Source of the DNA: Solidesulfovibrio sp.
Lineage (GTDB): Bacteria; Desulfobacterota; Desulfovibrionia; Desulfovibrionales; Desulfovibrionaceae
NCBI RefSeq assembly: GCF_029978005.1
Contig: NZ_JARKOZ010000139.1
Span: forward strand, 1-60,198
Length of the DNA: 60,198 bases
Direction of reading: 5' to 3'
Numbering within the stretch: the first letter of the stretch is position 1; every line of letters starts with the position of its first letter. Position numbers and translations under genes: made by a program. A model generated the notes under the pieces. The model had not been told where the DNA came from and did not search any database. It was given only the letters and a program-made list of their open reading frames with translations. Below, piece by piece: positions 27,779-36,042 of the stretch.

Positions 27779-28291
27779 TCACTTGAGCGTCAGGGCGCAG
27801 CCGGCGACCACGAGGCGCACATCGCCGGCCAGGGCGGCGACGGTCTGGTTGCAGCCGCCCAGGGCGTCGGCGAAGCGCCGCATGGCCGCGCTCGCGCCAA
27901 GTCCCCCCAGCCCGACCTCGGTGCTCACCACGATCAGTTCCGGTCCGTGCGCCGCGGCATAAGGGCTCAGGGCTTCCGTAAGCGCTTCGGGACACGATCG
28001 CATGGCATTTTCGTCATGGCAGGCGAAGAGCCAAAAGTCCAGGCTGTCGAAGAGAAGAGTGCCCCCCCGGGGGGCCTCGGCGGCGAGCACGTCCATGGCG
28101 GTCGCCCCGGCCTCGATGACGGCCACCCCGGGCGGCCGGGCCCGCTTGTGGGCGGCGATGCGCTCCCGGAACTCGAAATCGAGCGCCCGGCCCGTGGCCA
28201 GCACCCGGCGCGGGGCCGCGCCGGCCAGCAGCAACCCCTCGGCCAGGGCCGACTTGCCGGAGCGCACGCCGCCAAGGAGCAGCCGGATCAT
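27779..28291 (-). CDS. cobU: Adenosylcobinamide kinase / cobinamide-P guanylyltransferase
   Basis: 170 residues. The P-loop GGVRSGKSALAEG opens the protein; the CobU signature LATGRALDFEFRERIAAHKR contains the His that is guanylylated in this family. The later VVSTEVGLG and end residues match. It activates the nucleotide-loop end of cobinamide in B12 assembly and salvage. The ATG overlaps the stop of the CbiR-like gene, so the two are coupled. The Trp/Glu region after the His differs somewhat from the E. coli form. Confidence 0.9.
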   Translation of the reverse strand: MIRLLLGGVRSGKSALAEGLLLAGAAPRRVLATGRALDFEFRERIAAHKRARPPGVAVIEAGATAMDVLAAEAPRGGTLLFDSLDFWLFACHDENAMRSCPEALTEALSPYAAAHGPELIVVSTEVGLGGLGASAAMRRFADALGGCNQTVAALAGDVRLVVAGCALTLK

Positions 28292-29073
28292 TCCCTCTCC
28301 GCCGGACAGGCGGTGGACGCCTGCCCGCCGCAGGCCAGGGCGTCCAGCACGTGCAGGCTCTCCATCAGGTGGACCGGGGCGAAGACCTCGACCACCACGG
28401 TCTCGGGCCGCAGGTTGGCCAGCATCCAGACGAGGACCTCCCGGCCCTCGGGCGACAGGCAGCCCAGGGTGCGGTGGCTGTGGCGCCGTCCGGGCGGCGG
28501 CCCCTCGGCTCCGAAGGGCGAGTAGACATGGAGCATGCGGGTCAGGCGCGCCAGGTCCGGGTCGTGGGCGGGCAGGGCGTGGCCCATGGCCAGCATGTGG
28601 CCGAGATCCAGGCACACGCCGCAGCCGGCCGCGGCGGCCATGGCCGTGACGTCTTCCGGCGAGATTCCCTCGGTGTTCTCGAGAAGCACGGTGGCCGGAT
28701 CGCGGCCGGCTGCGGCCAGGGCGGCCAGGAACGCCTCCAGGGCGGCCAGGCTGTCCGGGGGATGGAGCACCATGGCCCAGGGCACGAGGCGGGCCGTGCT
28801 TTTGAGCAGCCCCTCCATGGCGAAGAAGGCGGCGTCGCCGCCGTGCCGCCAGGGCAGGTCCAGAGGCAGGTGCAGGTGGTAGCGCAGGCCGAAGTCCTTC
28901 TTCGGCAGGTCGTCCGGGCCGTAGGCCAGGCAGCTTTCGAGTTCCAGGAGATAGAGGCCGACCTCGTCCACGGTGCGGGAGAGCAGGCGGCAATTGGCGG
29001 CGGCGGTGTCGGGCCACACGCAGCTCGGGGCGGCGACGCGCCAGGATACGGCGGGGTTGCATTTTTGTATCAT
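28288..29073 (-). CDS. cbiR: CbiR-like cobamide-remodelling phosphodiesterase
   Basis: 261 residues with a TIM-barrel, AP-endonuclease-2-like pattern: first strand RVAAPSCVWPDT, then YHLHLPLDLPW, VLHPPDS, VLLENTEGI, CLDLGHMLAMGH, LHVYSPFG and TVVVEVFAP. Metal ligands would be these His, Glu and Asp residues. The position directly upstream of cobU, and overlapping it, matches the known family that hydrolyses the nucleotide loop of cobamides for remodelling. I choose ATG 29073 because the first strand needs it, although no ribosome binding site is visible. Another AP-endonuclease-2 family enzyme is the alternative. Confidence 0.8.
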   Translation of the reverse strand: MIQKCNPAVSWRVAAPSCVWPDTAAANCRLLSRTVDEVGLYLLELESCLAYGPDDLPKKDFGLRYHLHLPLDLPWRHGGDAAFFAMEGLLKSTARLVPWAMVLHPPDSLAALEAFLAALAAAGRDPATVLLENTEGISPEDVTAMAAAAGCGVCLDLGHMLAMGHALPAHDPDLARLTRMLHVYSPFGAEGPPPGRRHSHRTLGCLSPEGREVLVWMLANLRPETVVVEVFAPVHLMESLHVLDALACGGQASTACPAERE

Positions 29074-29224: not shown

Positions 29225-29368
29225 ATGCGACAGATTCGAGACTTCGTGCAGCATTTCTTCAATCCGCTGCACGTGTATTGCCGGCTCAAGGACATGGGCG
29301 TCAAGACGCCCACGGCCCACCGGATGACCAGGGCCTACGAGCGCTACCTCTGGCGCTTCATCTGGTAG
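29225..29368 (+). CDS. 47-aa basic protein, unknown
   Basis: 47 residues beginning MRQIRDFVQHFFNPLHVYC, then GVKTPTAHRMTRAYERYLW, ending RFIW. The mix of aromatic, basic and hydrophobic residues looks protein-like and not like a shadow frame, and I recall similar tiny proteins in Desulfovibrio (not checked). The stop overlaps the end of the opposite-strand EndoQ-UvrD gene by 11 bases. The ribosome binding site is weak. No membrane helix is clear; an amphipathic helix is likely. Confidence 0.55.
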   Translation: MRQIRDFVQHFFNPLHVYCRLKDMGVKTPTAHRMTRAYERYLWRFIW

Positions 29369-32300
29369 AATCCTCGACCCCGAACAGCGGCAGCTGGCGC
29401 GCCTGGCTCACGGTGCGCGCCACCAGGGCCGAGCGCCGCACCCCCCCGAGATCCAGGTTTTCCAGAAAGCGCGAACGCTTGAGCATGAACCGCCGGCCGT
29501 AGAGGTCGCGGCGCACGGCGTGGGACAGGTACAGCCGCCTTTTGGCCCGGGTGAGACCCACGTAGAAAAGCCGGCGCTCCTCGTCCTCGTCCATCTGGCC
29601 GGCCAGGTGCCCGGGCTTGCCCGTGAGGAAGTCCGCACCGGCGAAGGGCAAAAGTCCGTCCTCCAGGGCCGGCAGGAACACGGCGGCGAATTCCAGCCCC
29701 TTGCCCGCGTGCAGGGTCATGATGCGGACCTTCTCGGCCCGTCTGCCCACCAGTTCCAGCTCGGTTTCGCCGGCGACGTAGTTCAGCAGGCCGGCCCAGC
29801 CGCCGTGGGCGTCGAAGGCCCGGCACAGCTCGCGAAATTCCGGCCCCTGCCAGAAAAGCCGGTCGAAGGGCGCGATGTCCTCGAGATAGGCCGAAAGCCC
29901 GAGCGGCCCCTTGGCCAGCACCCGGTCCGGCAGAGTGGGGGGCTTTTCCACGTCTTCGGGCACGGGCAGCCCCAGCAGCCGGCCGGCGGCGGCCAGAAGC
30001 AGGCGCACGCGCGGCTCGTTGAAAAAGGCGTCGGCCTCGGGCGCGGCGCAGGGGATGCCGAAGCGCTCCAGGCTCTTGCGGATGGGGCCGATGAGCGCCG
30101 AGACGCGCACGAGCACGGCGATGTCGGCCGGGGACAGGGTGTCTGCGGCCAGGTCCCGGGCCAGGGTCAACGAGGTGCCGCCGAGAAGCGCGCTGATGCG
30201 TTCGCCCATCCAGCCCGCCTCGCCGGCGGCGGTGGGGGCCTCGAAAAGCTGTATTTCCGTGGTGGCGGTGGTGTCGCGGCTTAAGCGCGACACCAGCGGC
30301 GCGCGGCCGGGAAAGAGGCCGGCGGCCAGGTTCAGGAGCGGCTGGGTGGAACGGTAGTTTTCGGCGAGCGTGGCCACGGCCAGATCCGGCCACAGGGCCG
30401 TGAGCTCGGCCCTGGCCGCGCCCGTCGCGCCCCGGAAGCCGTAGATGGCCTGGTCCGGATCGCCGATGGCGAAAAGGCTGGCCCGCTCCCGGCCGACCAG
30501 GGCCGCGACCACGGCCAGTTGCAGCGCGGTCAGGTCCTGGACCTCGTCCACCAGCACGTGGGAGTAGGGCGGCCGCTCGCCCCCGGCCGAGAGCTTCTCC
30601 AGCCAGTATTCCAGCAGGTCCGTGAAATCCAGCAGGTTCCAGTCGGCCTTCTGGCGGGCGTAACGGGCGGCGTAGAGCCCCGGGCCCACGGTCGCGGCGT
30701 CTTTCGGGGCCTGCAGGCGCTCCCGGGCCAGGGACAGGTCGCGCCAGGCGCTTCGCAGCTTGGCCCCGGTCAGTTCGGGGTTGGCCGCGGCGAAGAGCCG
30801 CCGGGCGGCGTCCTCGGAAAGGAGCACCGGCTCCTGGCCGCCGGCCCGGGTCCAGGCCTCCAGGGCCAGGGCGTGGAGGGTGTCGGCCCGGGGCAGGTTC
30901 TGGGCGGTTTGCGCGCCGTCGCCGCCGGCCAGGCGCTGGCGCAGCTCCTCGGCCGCCCGGCGGGTGAAGGTCACGGCCAGGATGTCGCCGGCCGGGATGC
31001 CGGCCGCGAGCAGGGCGCGGATCTTGGCCAGAAGCGTATGGGTCTTGCCCGTACCGGGGCCGGCCACCACCAGCACGTGGCGGCCGCCGTTCTCCACGGC
31101 CGCCTGCTGGGAGGGGTTGAGGCTGCGGCGCGTGACCACGGGCGCGGGCGGCGCGGTCCGGGGCGGCGGGGCGGGGGGAGGCTCGGGGGAGGCGTCGTCG
31201 CCGCCGGCCGGGTCGCGCGGCCGGGCCGCCTTGGCGGCCGGGGGCGGCACGGCCAGGTAGCGGCCGCTTTTGAGCTCGCGCTGCTCCTGGGGGGTGAAGA
31301 CCGAGATGCGGCCGTATTCGCCGTCGAAGCCGGGGCGGCGCAGCACCCGGCCGGCGCGCATCCGGGCCACGGCCTCGCCGAGGATGGCGTCCACCCGGCC
31401 GAGGTCCTCCACGGGCGCGTCGCGAAGCACCGTGAGCTCCGCGCCGAATTTGGCCAGCAGCCGGGCCACCAGCCCCCGGGCCTTGGCCGTCTTGGCCCCC
31501 ACGCCCATGACCTCGCCGGCAATCTCGTCAAGCGGTATGAGCGAGGTGAACCCCGGCATGCCCTCGGGCCGGACGGGCTCGGTGCGGTCGGCCAGTTCCA
31601 GCACCCGGTGCAGCACCCCGAGCGTCAGCGGCTTGCCGCACACCGGGCAAAGCCCCCCGCGCGCCTTGGCCTCGGCCGGCTCCATGACCACGCCGCATTC
31701 GCGGTGGCCGTCCAGGTGGTACTTGCCCTCCTCGGGAAAGAACTCCACCGTGCCGCAAAACCGGGGCCCCAGGCCCTGGCCGCGCAGCGCCCGGTAGATG
31801 CCCTCGTAGGAGGGGTCGCCGGAAAAGAGGTTGCATTCGCGGCCGAGCTTCTCGCCGGAATGGGCGTCGGAGTTGGAGACCAGGCGGAAGCGGTCCAGGG
31901 CCGACAGCGTCCAGTTCATCTCCGGGTCCGAGGACAGCCCCGTCTCCAGGGCGAAGATCTCCTTGGCCAGCGATCCGTAGCATTCCTCCACCGAGTCGAA
32001 GCCGGACTTGGAGCCGAACAGCGAAAACCACGGCGTCCAGATGTGGGCCGGCACCAGAAAGGCCATGGGGTCGGTTTCGAGCACCATCTCCAGCAGGTGG
32101 CGGCTGTCGAGGCCGAGGATGGGCCGGCCGTCCGAGGCGAGGTTGCCGACCTTGGCCAGCTTGCGGTTGAGGCTTTCGGCCGCCTCGTAGGTGGGGACGT
32201 AGACGAGGTTGTGGACTTTGCGGACCTTGCCGCCGCGCTTGTAGATGGAGCTGATTTCCGCCGAGAGCAGGAAGCGCACGCGCCCGGAGGGGCTGGCGTC

Positions 32301-32543
32301 GGGCAGCCAGGGGAGTTCCCGGCCGAGGTGGGCCGGGTCCTTGAGGCGAAACAGCCCCGAAGCGTCCGGGGCGAGGGCTTCCTGGAGCTCGGAAAGCCAG
32401 CCCGGGTGGGTGAAGTCCCCCGTGGCCACCACGGTCAGGCCCTTGACCTCGCCCCAGGCGGCCAGGTTTCGCGGGGTGAGCCCCTTGCTCGTGGCCCGGG
32501 AGTGGCGGGAATGGATATGCAAGTCGGCGAGATACTGCTCCAT
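29358..32543 (-). CDS. Endonuclease Q (PHP) fused to UvrD/PcrA-type helicase
   Basis: 1061 residues; the start may be the ATG at 32543 or 32555. Residues 1-430 match Endonuclease Q: PHP motif ADLHIHSRHSRATSKGL, TGDFTHPGWL, LLSAEISSIYKRGGK, VPAHIWTPWFSLFGSKSGF, VSNSDAHSGEKLGREC, a Cys-rich zinc site (HREC, then GGLCPVCGKPL) and the ending RRPGFDGEYGRI. EndoQ nicks DNA 5' of deaminated bases and abasic sites. After a Pro/Ala-rich linker comes a superfamily 1 helicase: Walker A VVAGPGTGKTHTLL, LVDEVQDLTALQ, IGDPDQAIYGFRG, ENYRSTQPL, MTLHAGKGLEF and LFYVGLTRAKRRL. The fusion implies nick-then-unwind repair. Confidence 0.9.
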   Translation of the reverse strand: MEQYLADLHIHSRHSRATSKGLTPRNLAAWGEVKGLTVVATGDFTHPGWLSELQEALAPDASGLFRLKDPAHLGRELPWLPDASPSGRVRFLLSAEISSIYKRGGKVRKVHNLVYVPTYEAAESLNRKLAKVGNLASDGRPILGLDSRHLLEMVLETDPMAFLVPAHIWTPWFSLFGSKSGFDSVEECYGSLAKEIFALETGLSSDPEMNWTLSALDRFRLVSNSDAHSGEKLGRECNLFSGDPSYEGIYRALRGQGLGPRFCGTVEFFPEEGKYHLDGHRECGVVMEPAEAKARGGLCPVCGKPLTLGVLHRVLELADRTEPVRPEGMPGFTSLIPLDEIAGEVMGVGAKTAKARGLVARLLAKFGAELTVLRDAPVEDLGRVDAILGEAVARMRAGRVLRRPGFDGEYGRISVFTPQEQRELKSGRYLAVPPPAAKAARPRDPAGGDDASPEPPPAPPPRTAPPAPVVTRRSLNPSQQAAVENGGRHVLVVAGPGTGKTHTLLAKIRALLAAGIPAGDILAVTFTRRAAEELRQRLAGGDGAQTAQNLPRADTLHALALEAWTRAGGQEPVLLSEDAARRLFAAANPELTGAKLRSAWRDLSLARERLQAPKDAATVGPGLYAARYARQKADWNLLDFTDLLEYWLEKLSAGGERPPYSHVLVDEVQDLTALQLAVVAALVGRERASLFAIGDPDQAIYGFRGATGAARAELTALWPDLAVATLAENYRSTQPLLNLAAGLFPGRAPLVSRLSRDTTATTEIQLFEAPTAAGEAGWMGERISALLGGTSLTLARDLAADTLSPADIAVLVRVSALIGPIRKSLERFGIPCAAPEADAFFNEPRVRLLLAAAGRLLGLPVPEDVEKPPTLPDRVLAKGPLGLSAYLEDIAPFDRLFWQGPEFRELCRAFDAHGGWAGLLNYVAGETELELVGRRAEKVRIMTLHAGKGLEFAAVFLPALEDGLLPFAGADFLTGKPGHLAGQMDEDEERRLFYVGLTRAKRRLYLSHAVRRDLYGRRFMLKRSRFLENLDLGGVRRSALVARTVSQARQLPLFGVEDSTR

Positions 32544-32601
32544 GGGCCAAGGCATACAGAGATTGCCAAAAGGCGGCAAGGGCCGGCCGCGGCGGCGCAA
32601 T

Positions 32602-32630
32602 AAAAAGGGGGAACGCTTTCGCGTCCCCCC
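32602..32630 (-). terminator. Intrinsic terminator of sat
   Basis: Stem 32607-32616 with 32621-32630 around a four-base loop, then five T residues on the minus strand. It lies 28 bases past the sat stop. Confidence 0.88.
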
Positions 32631-32657: not shown

Positions 32658-33950
32658 TTATTTGGCGGATTCGCCGGAAGCAGCGCCGTGCATCTTGATC
32701 TCGACCTTCTCGGTCAGGCCCTCGTAGTACTTGCGCAGGATGACCAGGACCTCGTCGCGGCCGAAGTGATCCGGGATCTCGCCGCCCTCGGACAGCATCT
32801 TGCGCAGCTTGGTGCCGGACAGGATGACGCGGTCTTCCTTGGTGTGCGGGCAGGTGCGCAGCGAAGCCATGCCGTCGCACTTGTAGCAGTAGAAAGTCCA
32901 GTCGATCTTCAGCGGCTGGCAGAGCAGGGCCTGGCCGGGCTTGGGAGCCTTGCCGTCGGCGTAGGGGATGCGGTCGAAGATCTCCTGAGCCTCGAACATG
33001 CCGTAGAAGTCGCCGACGCCGGCGTGGTCACGGCCGATGATCATCTTGTTGACGCCGTAGTTCTGGCGGAAGGTGGCGTGCAGCAGGCCTTCGCGGGGAC
33101 CGGCGTAACGCATGTCGAGGGGGTAGCCGCCCTGGACCACGTTCTTTTCCACGAAGTAGTGCTTGACCAGGGTGTCGATGCACTCGACGCGGACTTCGGC
33201 CGGGATGTCGCCGGGCTTCAGGTTGCCGATCAGCGAGTGGATGATGACGCCGTCGCAAACCTCAATGGCGATCTTGCACAGGTATTCGTGGGAGCGGTGC
33301 ATGGGGTTGCGCAGCTGCAGCGCGGCGACGTTGGCCCAGCCGCGCTCGTCGAAGATGGCGCGGGTCTCGGCCGGACGCAGGTACACGCCCTTGTACTTGG
33401 TCGGGTACTCGCCCTCGGACAGGACCTTGACCGGGCCGGCCAGGCAGATGGCCTTGCGGTCCATGACCATCTTGACGCCCGGGTGGTCTTCCAGGGCGAC
33501 CTTCCAGAACTTGTCGTCGGCGGAATCGTCGCCATGGCCCTTGTAGACCATCTCGGATTCCCACTTCTTGTCGGCCTCGGTCAGCTCGAACTTCTCGGTG
33601 ACCTTCATGGTGGCGAAAATTTCGCCCTTGCGCTCAAGGGTGATTTCCTCGCCGTCCTTGATGGCGGCGGCTTCTTCCTTGGTCACCGCCAGCACGACGG
33701 GAACCGGCCAGAAGGTGCCGTCGGCCAGGGTCATCTTCTCGACGACGCTCTTCCAATCGGCCTTGGTCATGAAGCCGTCCAGGGGCGAGAAACCGCCGAT
33801 GCCGATCATGATCAGGTCGCCCTTTTCCTGGGCGGTGATCTCGACCTTCTTGAGGCCGGCGGCCTTCTTCAGCTCGGCTTCCTTGGCAGCGCCCTCGAGC
33901 AGGCGAATGACCAGACCTTTGCCTCCATGCGGCGGAACCAATTTGGACAT
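32658..33950 (-). CDS. sat: Sulfate adenylyltransferase (ATP sulfurylase)
   Basis: 430 residues. It activates sulfate to APS, the first step of dissimilatory sulfate reduction. The ATP-binding motif is [14 protein letters not shown] near residue 218, with [12 protein letters not shown] further on, and a C-terminal zinc-type Cys motif ([16 protein letters not shown]). The length and single-domain form fit the homo-oligomeric enzyme of sulfate reducers. AAGGAGG precedes the ATG at 33950; the longer frame upstream is not coding. It has its own promoter candidate and terminator, so it is monocistronic and probably highly expressed. Confidence 0.97.
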
Positions 33951-34045
33951 GTAGCGCCTCCTTACCGGTGATTTTGTTGAAGTTTCCGCGTAGCACCTGG
34001 GTGGTCGGATGGAGTCCGGAGCCGACCGTGCCCATGAGTGCAGCC

Positions 34046-34090
34046 GGTATACACCACGGAGAGGGGAATACCAAGTGAAAAATGTATCAA
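34046..34090 (-). promoter_or_regulatory. sat promoter with degenerate Rex-like site
   Basis: On the minus strand TTGGTA (34069-34074), 17 bases, TATACC (34046-34051). Just upstream, 34073-34090 has a TTG...TTCAC arrangement matching about 9 of 14 fixed bases of the Rex consensus TTGTGAA-N4-TTCACAA. The leader to sat is about 90 bases. Confidence 0.4.
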
Positions 34091-34166
34091 AGGGCACGAA
34101 ATTGTCCCCGAGCCCCGTGCGAAAGGGCGGATTTCGTGTCCGGTCGCGCACCCTGCCTCGCCCGCA

Positions 34167-34195
34167 TTGACCTTGCCCCCGCCTTCCATTATGTG
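34167..34195 (+). promoter_or_regulatory. Candidate sigma70 promoter of lepA
   Basis: TTGACC (34167-34172), 17 bases, TATGTG (34190-34195), about 45 bases before the lepA start codon. Confidence 0.5.
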
Positions 34196-34239
34196 CCTTG
34201 CCGACCCTAAGCGGCGTTTCGCCAAAGGCCCCCCCACGC

Positions 34240-36042
34240 ATGGATATCTCGCGCATCAGAAATTTCAGCATCATCGCGCACATCGACCACGGCAAGTCGA
34301 CGCTGGCCGATCGCATCCTCGAACTGACCGGCGTCATCACCGCCAGGGAGATGCGCGAGCAATACCTCGACCGCATGGACCTCGAGCGCGAGCGCGGCAT
34401 CACCATCAAGGCCCAGACCGTGCGCATTCCTTATAAGGCCGCCGACGGGAACGAGTACATCCTCAACCTCATCGACACCCCGGGGCACGTGGACTTCTCC
34501 TACGAGGTCTCGCGCAGCCTGGCCGCCTGCGAGGGCGCGCTGCTCGTGGTCGACGCCACCCAGGGCGTGGAGGCGCAGACGCTCGCCAACGTGTTCCTGG
34601 CCCTCGACAACGACCTGGAGATCATTCCGGTCCTCAACAAGATCGACCTGCCGAGCGCCGACCCGGAAGCGGTCAAGGCCGAGATCGAGGAGGCCATCGG
34701 CCTGCCCTGCGCCGACGCCGTGTCCGTCTCGGCCAAGACCGGAATCAACGTCGGGGCCGTGCTCGAACAGATCATCGCCAAGATCCCCCCGCCCAAGGGC
34801 CATGCCGACGCGCCGCTCAAGGCCCTGGTCGTGGACTCCTATTACGACTCCTACCAGGGCGTGGTGGTCCTGTTCCGCGTCATGGACGGCACGGTCAGGC
34901 TCGGGCAGCGCATCAGGATGATGTCCAACGGCGTGGACTTCGAGGTCGTGCGCCTGGGCGCGTTTTCCCCGGGCCCCATCGACATCCCGTCCTTTGGCCC
35001 GGGCGAGGCCGGGTTCCTGTGCGCCAACATCAAGACCCTGACCGACGCCAGGGTGGGCGACACCGTCACCCTGGCGGACAACCCCGCCGCCGAGGCCCTG
35101 CCGGGGTTCAAGGAAGTCAAGCCCATGGTCTTTTGCGGCCTCTACCCGGTGGACGCCGCCGAGTACGAGATCCTCAAAACCGCCCTGGAGAAGCTGCGCT
35201 TAAACGACGCCGCCTTCACCTACGAGCCCGAGACGTCCCAGGCGCTCGGGTTCGGCTTCCGCTGTGGCTTTCTGGGCCTGCTCCACATGGAGATCATCCA
35301 GGAGCGGCTGGAGCGCGAGTTCGGGGCCAGCCTCATCGCCACCGCGCCCTCGGTCATCTACAAGGTCGAGACCCTGTCGGGAAAGACCATCTCCATCGAG
35401 AATCCGAGCAAGCTGCCCAAGACCCAGGAGATCGCCGCCCTCTACGAGCCCTACGCCAAGCTCGAGATCCACACGCCCAACGAGTACGTCGGCGGCGTGT
35501 TCAAGCTGTGCGAGGAAAAGCGCGGCATCCAGAAGGACGTGCGCTACCTGACGGCCACCCGCGTCATCATCACCTACGAGCTGCCCTTCGCCGAGATCGT
35601 CTACGACTTTTTCGACCGGCTCAAGTCCGCCACGCGCGGCTACGCCTCCCTGGACTACGAGATCATCGACTACCGGGCCTCGGACCTGGTCAAGCTCGAC
35701 ATCATGATCAACGGCGACCCCGTGGACGCCCTGGCCGTCATCGTGCACCGCGACAACGCCTACCACTACGGCCGGGCCCTGGCGCTCAAGCTCAAGCGCG
35801 TCATCCCGCGCCAGCTCTTCGAGGTCATCATCCAGGCCGCCATCGGCACCAAGATCATCGCCCGGGAGCGCAACGCCCCCATGGGCAAGAACGTCACGGC
35901 CAAGTGCTACGGCGGCGACATTACGCGCAAACGCAAGCTCTTGGAAAAGCAGAAGGAAGGCAAGAAGCGCATGAAGCGCATGGGCAACGTCGAACTGCCC
36001 CAGGAAGCCTTCCTGGCGGCGCTCAAGGCCGGGGACGACTAG
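34240..36042 (+). CDS. lepA: Elongation factor 4 (LepA)
   Basis: 600 residues, full length. GTPase motifs: [47 protein letters not shown]. The LepA-specific C-terminal domain follows ([37 protein letters not shown]). LepA acts on ribosomes during initiation/elongation stress. The start [10 protein letters not shown] fits the family. It is followed by lepB, as in many bacteria, after 108 bases. Confidence 0.97.

Follow-up and report, generated by a model that had tools for sequence, protein, structure and literature searches.

The EndoQ-helicase fusion gene

The 60,198-nucleotide stretch of Solidesulfovibrio sp. analysed here (contig NZ_JARKOZ010000139.1 of assembly GCF_029978005.1, positions 1 to 60,198, called the window) carries a gene for an endonuclease Q (EndoQ) joined in one chain to a UvrD-like helicase. 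On the minus strand, positions 29361-32555 have a stop-free translation of 1065 amino acids (aa), and the residue numbering of the fusion protein follows this version (P0001). The ATG at 32543 is the likelier start judging from the alignments, because similarity to relatives mostly starts at residue 4-5; the gene then occupies 29358..32543 (minus strand), with its stop codon at 29358-29360, and encodes 1061 aa, and the alternative in-frame ATG at 32555 on the same strand would yield the 1065 aa. The original prediction had described a fusion gene at 29358-32555, which is real and intact, although the minus strand was omitted there, and a plus-strand reading in its frame contains a stop. The combination of EndoQ and a UvrD-like helicase in one chain was borne out by phmmer, Pfam, and Foldseek matches, both in the profile searches that had been suggested as a check (EndoQ structure 5zb8, E 5.9e-53; PcrA model, E 9.7e-55) and in structure prediction, where the AlphaFold2 model matches the folds of PfuEndoQ and of UvrD, PcrA, and Rep. 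An assembly join is ruled out, as the same architecture is intact across many related genomes, and so is an oddity of the window's genome, as nearly all genomes of its family carry the gene, the whole protein being matched in 192 of 199 genomes and in 148 of the 149 of high quality.

Endonuclease Q half

Residues 5-425 (31281..32543, minus strand) form the EndoQ domain, with the PHP catalytic part, a zinc-ribbon-like part, and the C-terminal helical part, as assigned by phmmer and Foldseek against 5zb8. The phmmer match to this PfuEndoQ structure spans residues 10-422, the structures 7k30-7k33 match likewise, and the predicted model matches 5zb8 in Foldseek with an E of 3e-29 and a template modelling score (TM) of 0.80-0.81 over the target. 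The NCBIfam model TIGR00375, a hypothetical equivalog, gives 169.6 bits, below its curated cut-off of 326.6, and the domain is homologous to this family and not filed in it.

The active-site residues of the PHP site proposed in the original prediction are all present in the alignment to PfuEndoQ. Mapped by phmmer, Pfu H8, H10, E76, H84, H139, G169, S171, D193, and H195 correspond to H13, H15, E100, H115, H171, G206, S208, D230, and H232, respectively, all identical, with H13 and H15 lying in PHP motif I, DLHIHS (residues 11-16; 32508..32525, minus strand). According to the review PMC8307549, the zinc at the scissile phosphate of PfuEndoQ is bound by E76, H84, and H139, each of them indispensable in mutation tests, and normal bases are shut out by H139, G169, and S171. 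The catalytic and pocket positions are each kept in 77-78 of 78 fused rows, the sole gap being a contig-truncated row. Across 114 EndoQ rows, the base-discriminating pair G206 and S208 is kept in every row, and the metal-ligand and PHP positions are invariant except for a tyrosine at H171 in the locus L023 and for L014, in which the N-terminal positions are uncovered. In the same L023, the reading frame changes at the domain junction and helicase motif V is interrupted by a stop; this copy is apparently decaying.

The zinc motifs proposed for this half stood in part: three of the four cysteines are kept, and the first PfuEndoQ cysteine is replaced by histidine in 114 of 114 rows. The resulting zinc-ribbon-like site, H284-x2-C287 ... 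C303-x2-C306 (31638..31706, minus strand; alignment to PfuEndoQ), is putative and perhaps of an HCCC type.

Helicase half

Residues 478-1035 (29451..31124, minus strand) form a UvrD-like superfamily 1 (SF1) helicase domain, assigned from Pfam PF00580/PF13361, the motif residues, and Foldseek. The Pfam UvrD-helicase match has an E of 2e-39 (PF00580, 136 bits, cut-off 23), UvrD_C is matched also, and the same residues match the structures of UvrD, Rep, and PcrA in phmmer, with Foldseek E values of about 1e-34 for UvrD/PcrA/Rep. Walker A, GPGTGKT, is found at residues 499-505 (31041..31061, minus strand) in the sequence and the alignment, and the signature residues of Walker A/B and of motifs Ia, III, IV, V, and VI do not vary in any of the 21 fused rows aligned.

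The helicase is therefore a complete SF1 helicase by its motifs and Pfam matches, but it lies outside the canonical UvrD/PcrA-type group in the tree, and the chain ends about 30 residues past the helicase core, with no space for the UvrD-type C-terminal domain. In the helicase tree of 56 rows, a 97/92 branch splits 36 EndoQ-linked helicases (32 fused, four in separate open reading frames, ORFs) from 20 other UvrD-type helicases of 13 genomes (the window's and 12 more); the tree omits L089 and L101 (Walker A pattern unmatched), L026, the RecB-like loci, and some hits without a locus, and seven long branches in it were flagged. The NCBIfam pcrA model matches the fusion in pieces with 186 bits, under a cut-off of 911. 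This cut-off is not discriminating here, as the PcrA/UvrD-like protein that the genome encodes on contig C165 also misses it (pcrA is its best model, matched over the full length with 411 bits). The presence of this second protein rules out the fusion helicase as the cell's sole UvrD, and the genome also has a RecB-like protein on contig C85.

The segment between motifs IV and V measures 216 aa in the window protein, 254-307 aa in the 17 measurable canonical rows, and 136-286 aa among the fused rows. Because of the 216 aa against 254-307 aa, a smaller 2B subdomain, the part that restrains UvrD-type monomers, is possible in the window protein, and it is no group trait. A short IV-V segment as a trait of the group was dropped on account of the fused range, as was G[GAT][TSHN]S as a group marker, which is present in 14 of 32 fused rows and in none of the 20 canonical ones.

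C-terminal clamp-like tail

The fusion chain ends in ...QARQLPLFGVEDSTR, which includes a beta-clamp-binding-like motif, QLPLF (residues 1054-1058; 29382..29396, minus strand). Clamp-binding peptides follow the published consensus Q-phi-x-[L/M]-[F/L], with QLxLF as the best form (PMC11139829). The last 20 residues of each protein were scanned with a pattern slightly wider than the published one, and the stricter published pattern was counted too. The wider pattern is found in 64 of 78 fused proteins, 6 of 34 stand-alone EndoQ proteins, and 2 of 964 background frames, the last being a rough control, as these frames run from stop to stop and many are no genes; the stricter pattern is found in 61, 6, and 1 of them, respectively. 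None of 17 canonical helicases has the clamp-like tail pattern, and a whole helicase ORF adjoining EndoQ has the wider pattern at its end in eight of eight loci. The 78 fused rows cannot be counted as independent, as L005/L028 and L017/L171 are apparently the same records and L034-L036 are nearly identical, and the number of distinct tails is 76; L014 lacks its N-terminus, and L021, a contig-end fragment, was excluded from the motif count.

Clamp motifs in bacterial EndoQ homologues had been noted earlier by Shiraishi et al. 2016 (PMC4858679), who also described the stimulation of archaeal EndoQ by PCNA through a C-terminal PCNA-interacting (PIP) box, and a PIP box was described in 2013 in a COG1379 protein of P. 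abyssi (PMC3820547). The putative clamp tail of the fusion is a new observation of the present analysis, which the original prediction had missed.

Linker, selective constraint, and coupling of the two halves

The two halves are joined by a Pro/Ala-rich linker (residues 426-477; 31125..31280, minus strand) under relaxed constraint, with a predicted local distance difference test score (pLDDT) below 50 at residues 437-476. The ratio of nonsynonymous to synonymous substitution rates (dN/dS) against four relatives is 0.09-0.25 for EndoQ, 0.13-0.39 for the helicase, and 0.47-0.61 for the linker, and both halves are under purifying selection. The AlphaFold2 model as a whole has a moderate mean pLDDT of 73.9.

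A distinct helicase group, which includes none of the 20 other UvrD-type helicases placed in the tree, accompanies EndoQ either fused to it or encoded next to it, and a PcrA/UvrD-like helicase is already present in the genome, all of which makes it quite unlikely that the fusion merely co-expresses two clamp clients, with EndoQ serving for bases and the motor serving as an accessory UvrD/Rep helicase for other nicks or blocks. Such loose tethering would fit a disordered and variable linker, the common occurrence of stand-alone EndoQ, and the faster change in the helicase half than in EndoQ.

Distribution and fusion history

The 24 related loci are found in Desulfovibrio-like bacteria, Nocardiopsis-like actinobacteria, Gastranaerophilales, and one member of the Patescibacteria. 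Within the window's family, the EndoQ half as such was seen in 186 of 199 genomes (147 of 149 of high quality). Forty-four weaker family matches were rechecked with the EndoQ half, and 40 of them have EndoQ (G003, G145, G187, and G196 do not); G100, of high quality, and G167 match the whole protein and were outside this recheck. Among the seven genomes not matched by the whole protein, G018, G081, and G086 had no match at an E of 1e-8 either, G086 being of high quality, and the other four (G022, G052, G174, and G180) are 54-69% complete. In the family genus g39 (G039, G067, G101, G113, G125, and G086), the EndoQ frames have 377-424 aa and none was found in G086; a glycosylase of the UDG superfamily is present in its members G039, G086, and G125, where glycosylase repair was possibly regained. 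Besides a short EndoQ frame, G033 has a further and distant EndoQ-like copy (C27:9265-10530; 32% identity) within a 1053-aa open frame.

In the phylum sample, the EndoQ half was found in 191 of 297 genomes, with two main sizes among the matches listed, about 430 aa and about 900-1190 aa. It was found in 4 of 198 genomes sampled around Streptomonospora (the phylum of G485) and in 46 of 194 sampled around Gastranaerophilales (the phylum of G486), 35 of these 46 in frames above 900 aa. All 11 Gastranaerophilales loci fetched with frames of that size are fused; the fetched loci, stand-alone and fused, were hand-picked from the listed rows and are no random sample. The G+C content of these 11 loci is 31-41%, compared with 69% for the window, and the rationale that such a route suits a very GC-rich genome with frequent cytosine deamination therefore fails.

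A helicase ORF lies directly behind EndoQ in 3 of the 20 stand-alone loci (L074, L077, and L078), and in each of them this ORF has the clamp-like pattern at its end. In L074 (G379) and L077 (G354), the two ORFs share a frame and are separated by one stop codon, which is TAA in G379. All fusions fall into one clade of the EndoQ tree (quick method, midpoint root), and the earliest branches of that clade are L077, L078, and the stand-alone L070. This is consistent with adjacency first, then fusion, and later losses, an order that the trees do not settle, because the helicase tree joins L077 and L078 to two fused rows (87/64, modest support).

In six Gastranaerophilales loci (L025, L190, L191, L194, L186, and L023), the helicase is out of the EndoQ frame at a poly-A run of 8-10. 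Among the 11 fused relatives, an in-frame junction run of 8-9 A is present in five and absent in six. The Gastranaerophilales neighbours, taken at one point for gene pairs, were downgraded to frame differences at the poly-A junction, possibly assembly indels. The poly-A junction could reflect programmed or phase-variable slippage, which is known in Thermus dnaX, or assembly indels.

Other genes for the repair of deaminated bases

The alternatives surveyed were the uracil-DNA glycosylase (UDG) superfamily (PF03167; positive in 13 of 14 controls) and endonuclease V (EndoV; PF04493; positive in 6 of 14 controls). No UDG-superfamily match was found in the 14 genomes of the window's genus, the window's own included, and EndoV was found in 2 of 199 family genomes (2 of 149 of high quality) and not in the window's genome. 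UDG is present in 52 of 199 family genomes (41 of 149 of high quality) and in 264 of 297 genomes of the phylum sample, in which all 11 members of the window's family fall among the 33 without it. The EndoQ half is present in each of the 108 high-quality family genomes that lack a UDG match, and G086, the only high-quality family genome without EndoQ, has a UDG match. The pattern shows compatibility with replacement and no inverse link, because EndoQ is near-universal in the family.

The role in the repair of deaminated bases that the original prediction had proposed is supported as likely by the sequence, with weight added as UDG-superfamily and EndoV genes were not found in the genome. The fusion is probably the main uracil and hypoxanthine route in this Desulfovibrionaceae-like family, which is mostly without UDG and EndoV.

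Genomic setting and the question of defence

The fusion gene lies between a minus-strand ATP sulfurylase gene upstream (32658-34427) and a CobU-domain gene (27779-29062, minus strand). A G+C-rich hairpin followed by a T-run, read by eye as terminator-like (32601..32630, minus strand), separates it from the upstream gene. The neighbours point to the chromosome of a sulfate reducer, and no repair operon was seen at the locus. The EndoQ half had no match in 72,556 plasmid and 50,697 phage records, and in the viral fold library the informatively named entries among the best 50 listed were, besides polyproteins, helicase matches only.

This chromosomal place between metabolic genes, the near-universal presence in the family, and the lack of plasmid or phage matches make it highly improbable that the gene serves in anti-phage defence through a GajB-like destruction of uracil-containing or otherwise modified foreign DNA. 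GajB models are the best PADLOC matches of the helicase half (E 2.5e-53), a similarity that mirrors general UvrD likeness, given the comparable E value of the PcrA model, and a defence role was suggested for Bacillus EndoQ (PMC8307549). A mobile or defence gene is for these reasons unsupported.

Proposed mechanism

It seems fairly likely that the fusion is a one-chain, clamp-tethered excision-repair machine that would nick and unwind deaminated DNA. The sequence combines an EndoQ domain, in which the residues for metal binding and base selection are present, with a complete UvrD-like motor attached through a flexible linker and with a terminal clamp-type peptide; nicking and unwinding, like all catalytic steps of the protein, are predicted. 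The C-terminal QLPLF peptide would first dock onto the beta clamp, and the EndoQ half would flip out a uracil, hypoxanthine, or abasic residue and cut the strand directly on its 5' side, so that the nick would have a 3'-OH and the damaged residue would carry the 5'-phosphate. The motor would then enter at the nick, bind the intact strand, and travel 3' to 5' along it, lifting off the damaged strand as a 5' flap on the downstream side of the nick. UvrD-type motors translocate 3' to 5' on the bound strand, and loading on the intact strand would be required because such a motor on the nicked strand would move away from the lesion. Finally, a clamp-bound polymerase would extend the 3'-OH, a 5' nuclease would trim the flap, and ligase would seal the strand.

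The order of the two activities may be questioned, as the flexible linker and the clamp-like motif permit either. UvrD-type motors need a loading site, which is supplied by the nick, and nicking of single-stranded DNA at a fork would break the fork; it is thus unlikely that unwinding comes before nicking, in an arrangement where the clamp sits at the fork, EndoQ nicks deaminated bases in the single-stranded or partly melted DNA supplied by the motor, and other enzymes remove the strand afterwards. EndoQ has been reported to cut deoxyuridine and deoxyinosine in single-stranded DNA (PMC11354406), as this reversed order would demand, but earlier authors drew the helicase after or between nicks: one published model places it between the cuts of EndoQ and EndoV (PMC4357722), and another places it with FEN1 after the EndoQ nick (PMC8438529). 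In the preferred order of nick and then unwinding, the fusion would be such a model helicase joined to its nuclease.

Several observations weigh against this mechanism and against a dominant role of the fusion in uracil repair. The activity of the protein is a prediction, the polarity and strand choice of its motor are taken by analogy from the UvrD family, and the model is poor in the EndoQ pocket segments 173-186 and 206-219 (pLDDT below 50). Of the 20 extra family loci, 10 have the tail pattern and 10 lack it. The latter make up 10 of the 14 fused misses, and in seven of these 10 the key Gln is replaced by His or Arg, so the clamp may be bound less well, or not at all, at these loci. No such helicase was present in the fetched stretch of 17 of the 20 stand-alone EndoQ loci. 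UDG is also present in 39 of the 147 high-quality family genomes with the EndoQ half, with two matches each in the fused-gene genomes G485 (Streptomonospora) and G488 (Nocardiopsis), and in both Gastranaerophilales genomes tested (one with a split unit, one with a stand-alone EndoQ). The fusion thus occurs also beside UDG and is no simple UDG replacement.

Literature and significance

The presence of EndoQ in Desulfovibrio and Bacillus is already in print. No description of an EndoQ-helicase fusion was found in the open literature searched, most subscription papers lying outside the search, and no helicase fusion is named in the accessible parts of PMC4357722, PMC4858679, PMC8307549, PMC8438529, PMC6202378, PMC7776575, PMC7690668, and PMC11354406. 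The legend of Figure 9A in PMC4357722 mentions total lengths, and its authors may have noticed the extra length.

Help from a helicase in the completion of repair after the EndoQ nick has so far been drawn in models only (PMC4357722, PMC8438529). That such a fusion occurs naturally and has been conserved across large distances points to the motor, and with one purified protein the post-nick step becomes testable. If the fusion is truly the main uracil route in a family mostly without UDG, it would be a family-wide exception to the UDG-first rule in bacteria. Gene deletion is possible in Desulfovibrio, which hence offers a place for testing UDG-free uracil repair. A broader picture is offered tentatively and with considerable doubt: a whole bacterial family may have largely dropped glycosylase-initiated repair of uracil and hypoxanthine for one clamp-bound nick-and-unwind polypeptide, with the EndoQ-helicase unit kept fused in three phyla and with a poly-A junction in gut Gastranaerophilales that may toggle, by slippage, between EndoQ alone and EndoQ-helicase.

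Comparison with known systems

Like the EndoQ of Pyrococcus and its relatives (PfuEndoQ/TkoEndoQ, Bacillus EndoQ, COG1379), the fusion has the whole EndoQ domain with its catalytic and base-selecting residues, a putative zinc-ribbon-like site, and a clamp-type peptide ending the chain; it differs in the attached helicase, in the histidine that replaces the first zinc cysteine, and in the position of the clamp-type peptide, which terminates the helicase and not EndoQ. With UvrD/PcrA/Rep (SF1A), it shares the SF1 motifs and the core fold, whereas its helicase forms a separate tree branch and has a clamp-like tail in place of the UvrD-type C-terminal extension. Gabija GajB and other nuclease-helicase pairs likewise have a nuclease working with a UvrD-like helicase, but here the nuclease is a different one, the gene is chromosomal and family-wide, and no defence context was seen. 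As in alternative excision repair, initiated by the nick of EndoQ, EndoV, or UVDE, repair would start beside the damaged base without a glycosylase; in the fusion, nuclease and motor are one polypeptide, proposed to carry out both the nick and the strand displacement.

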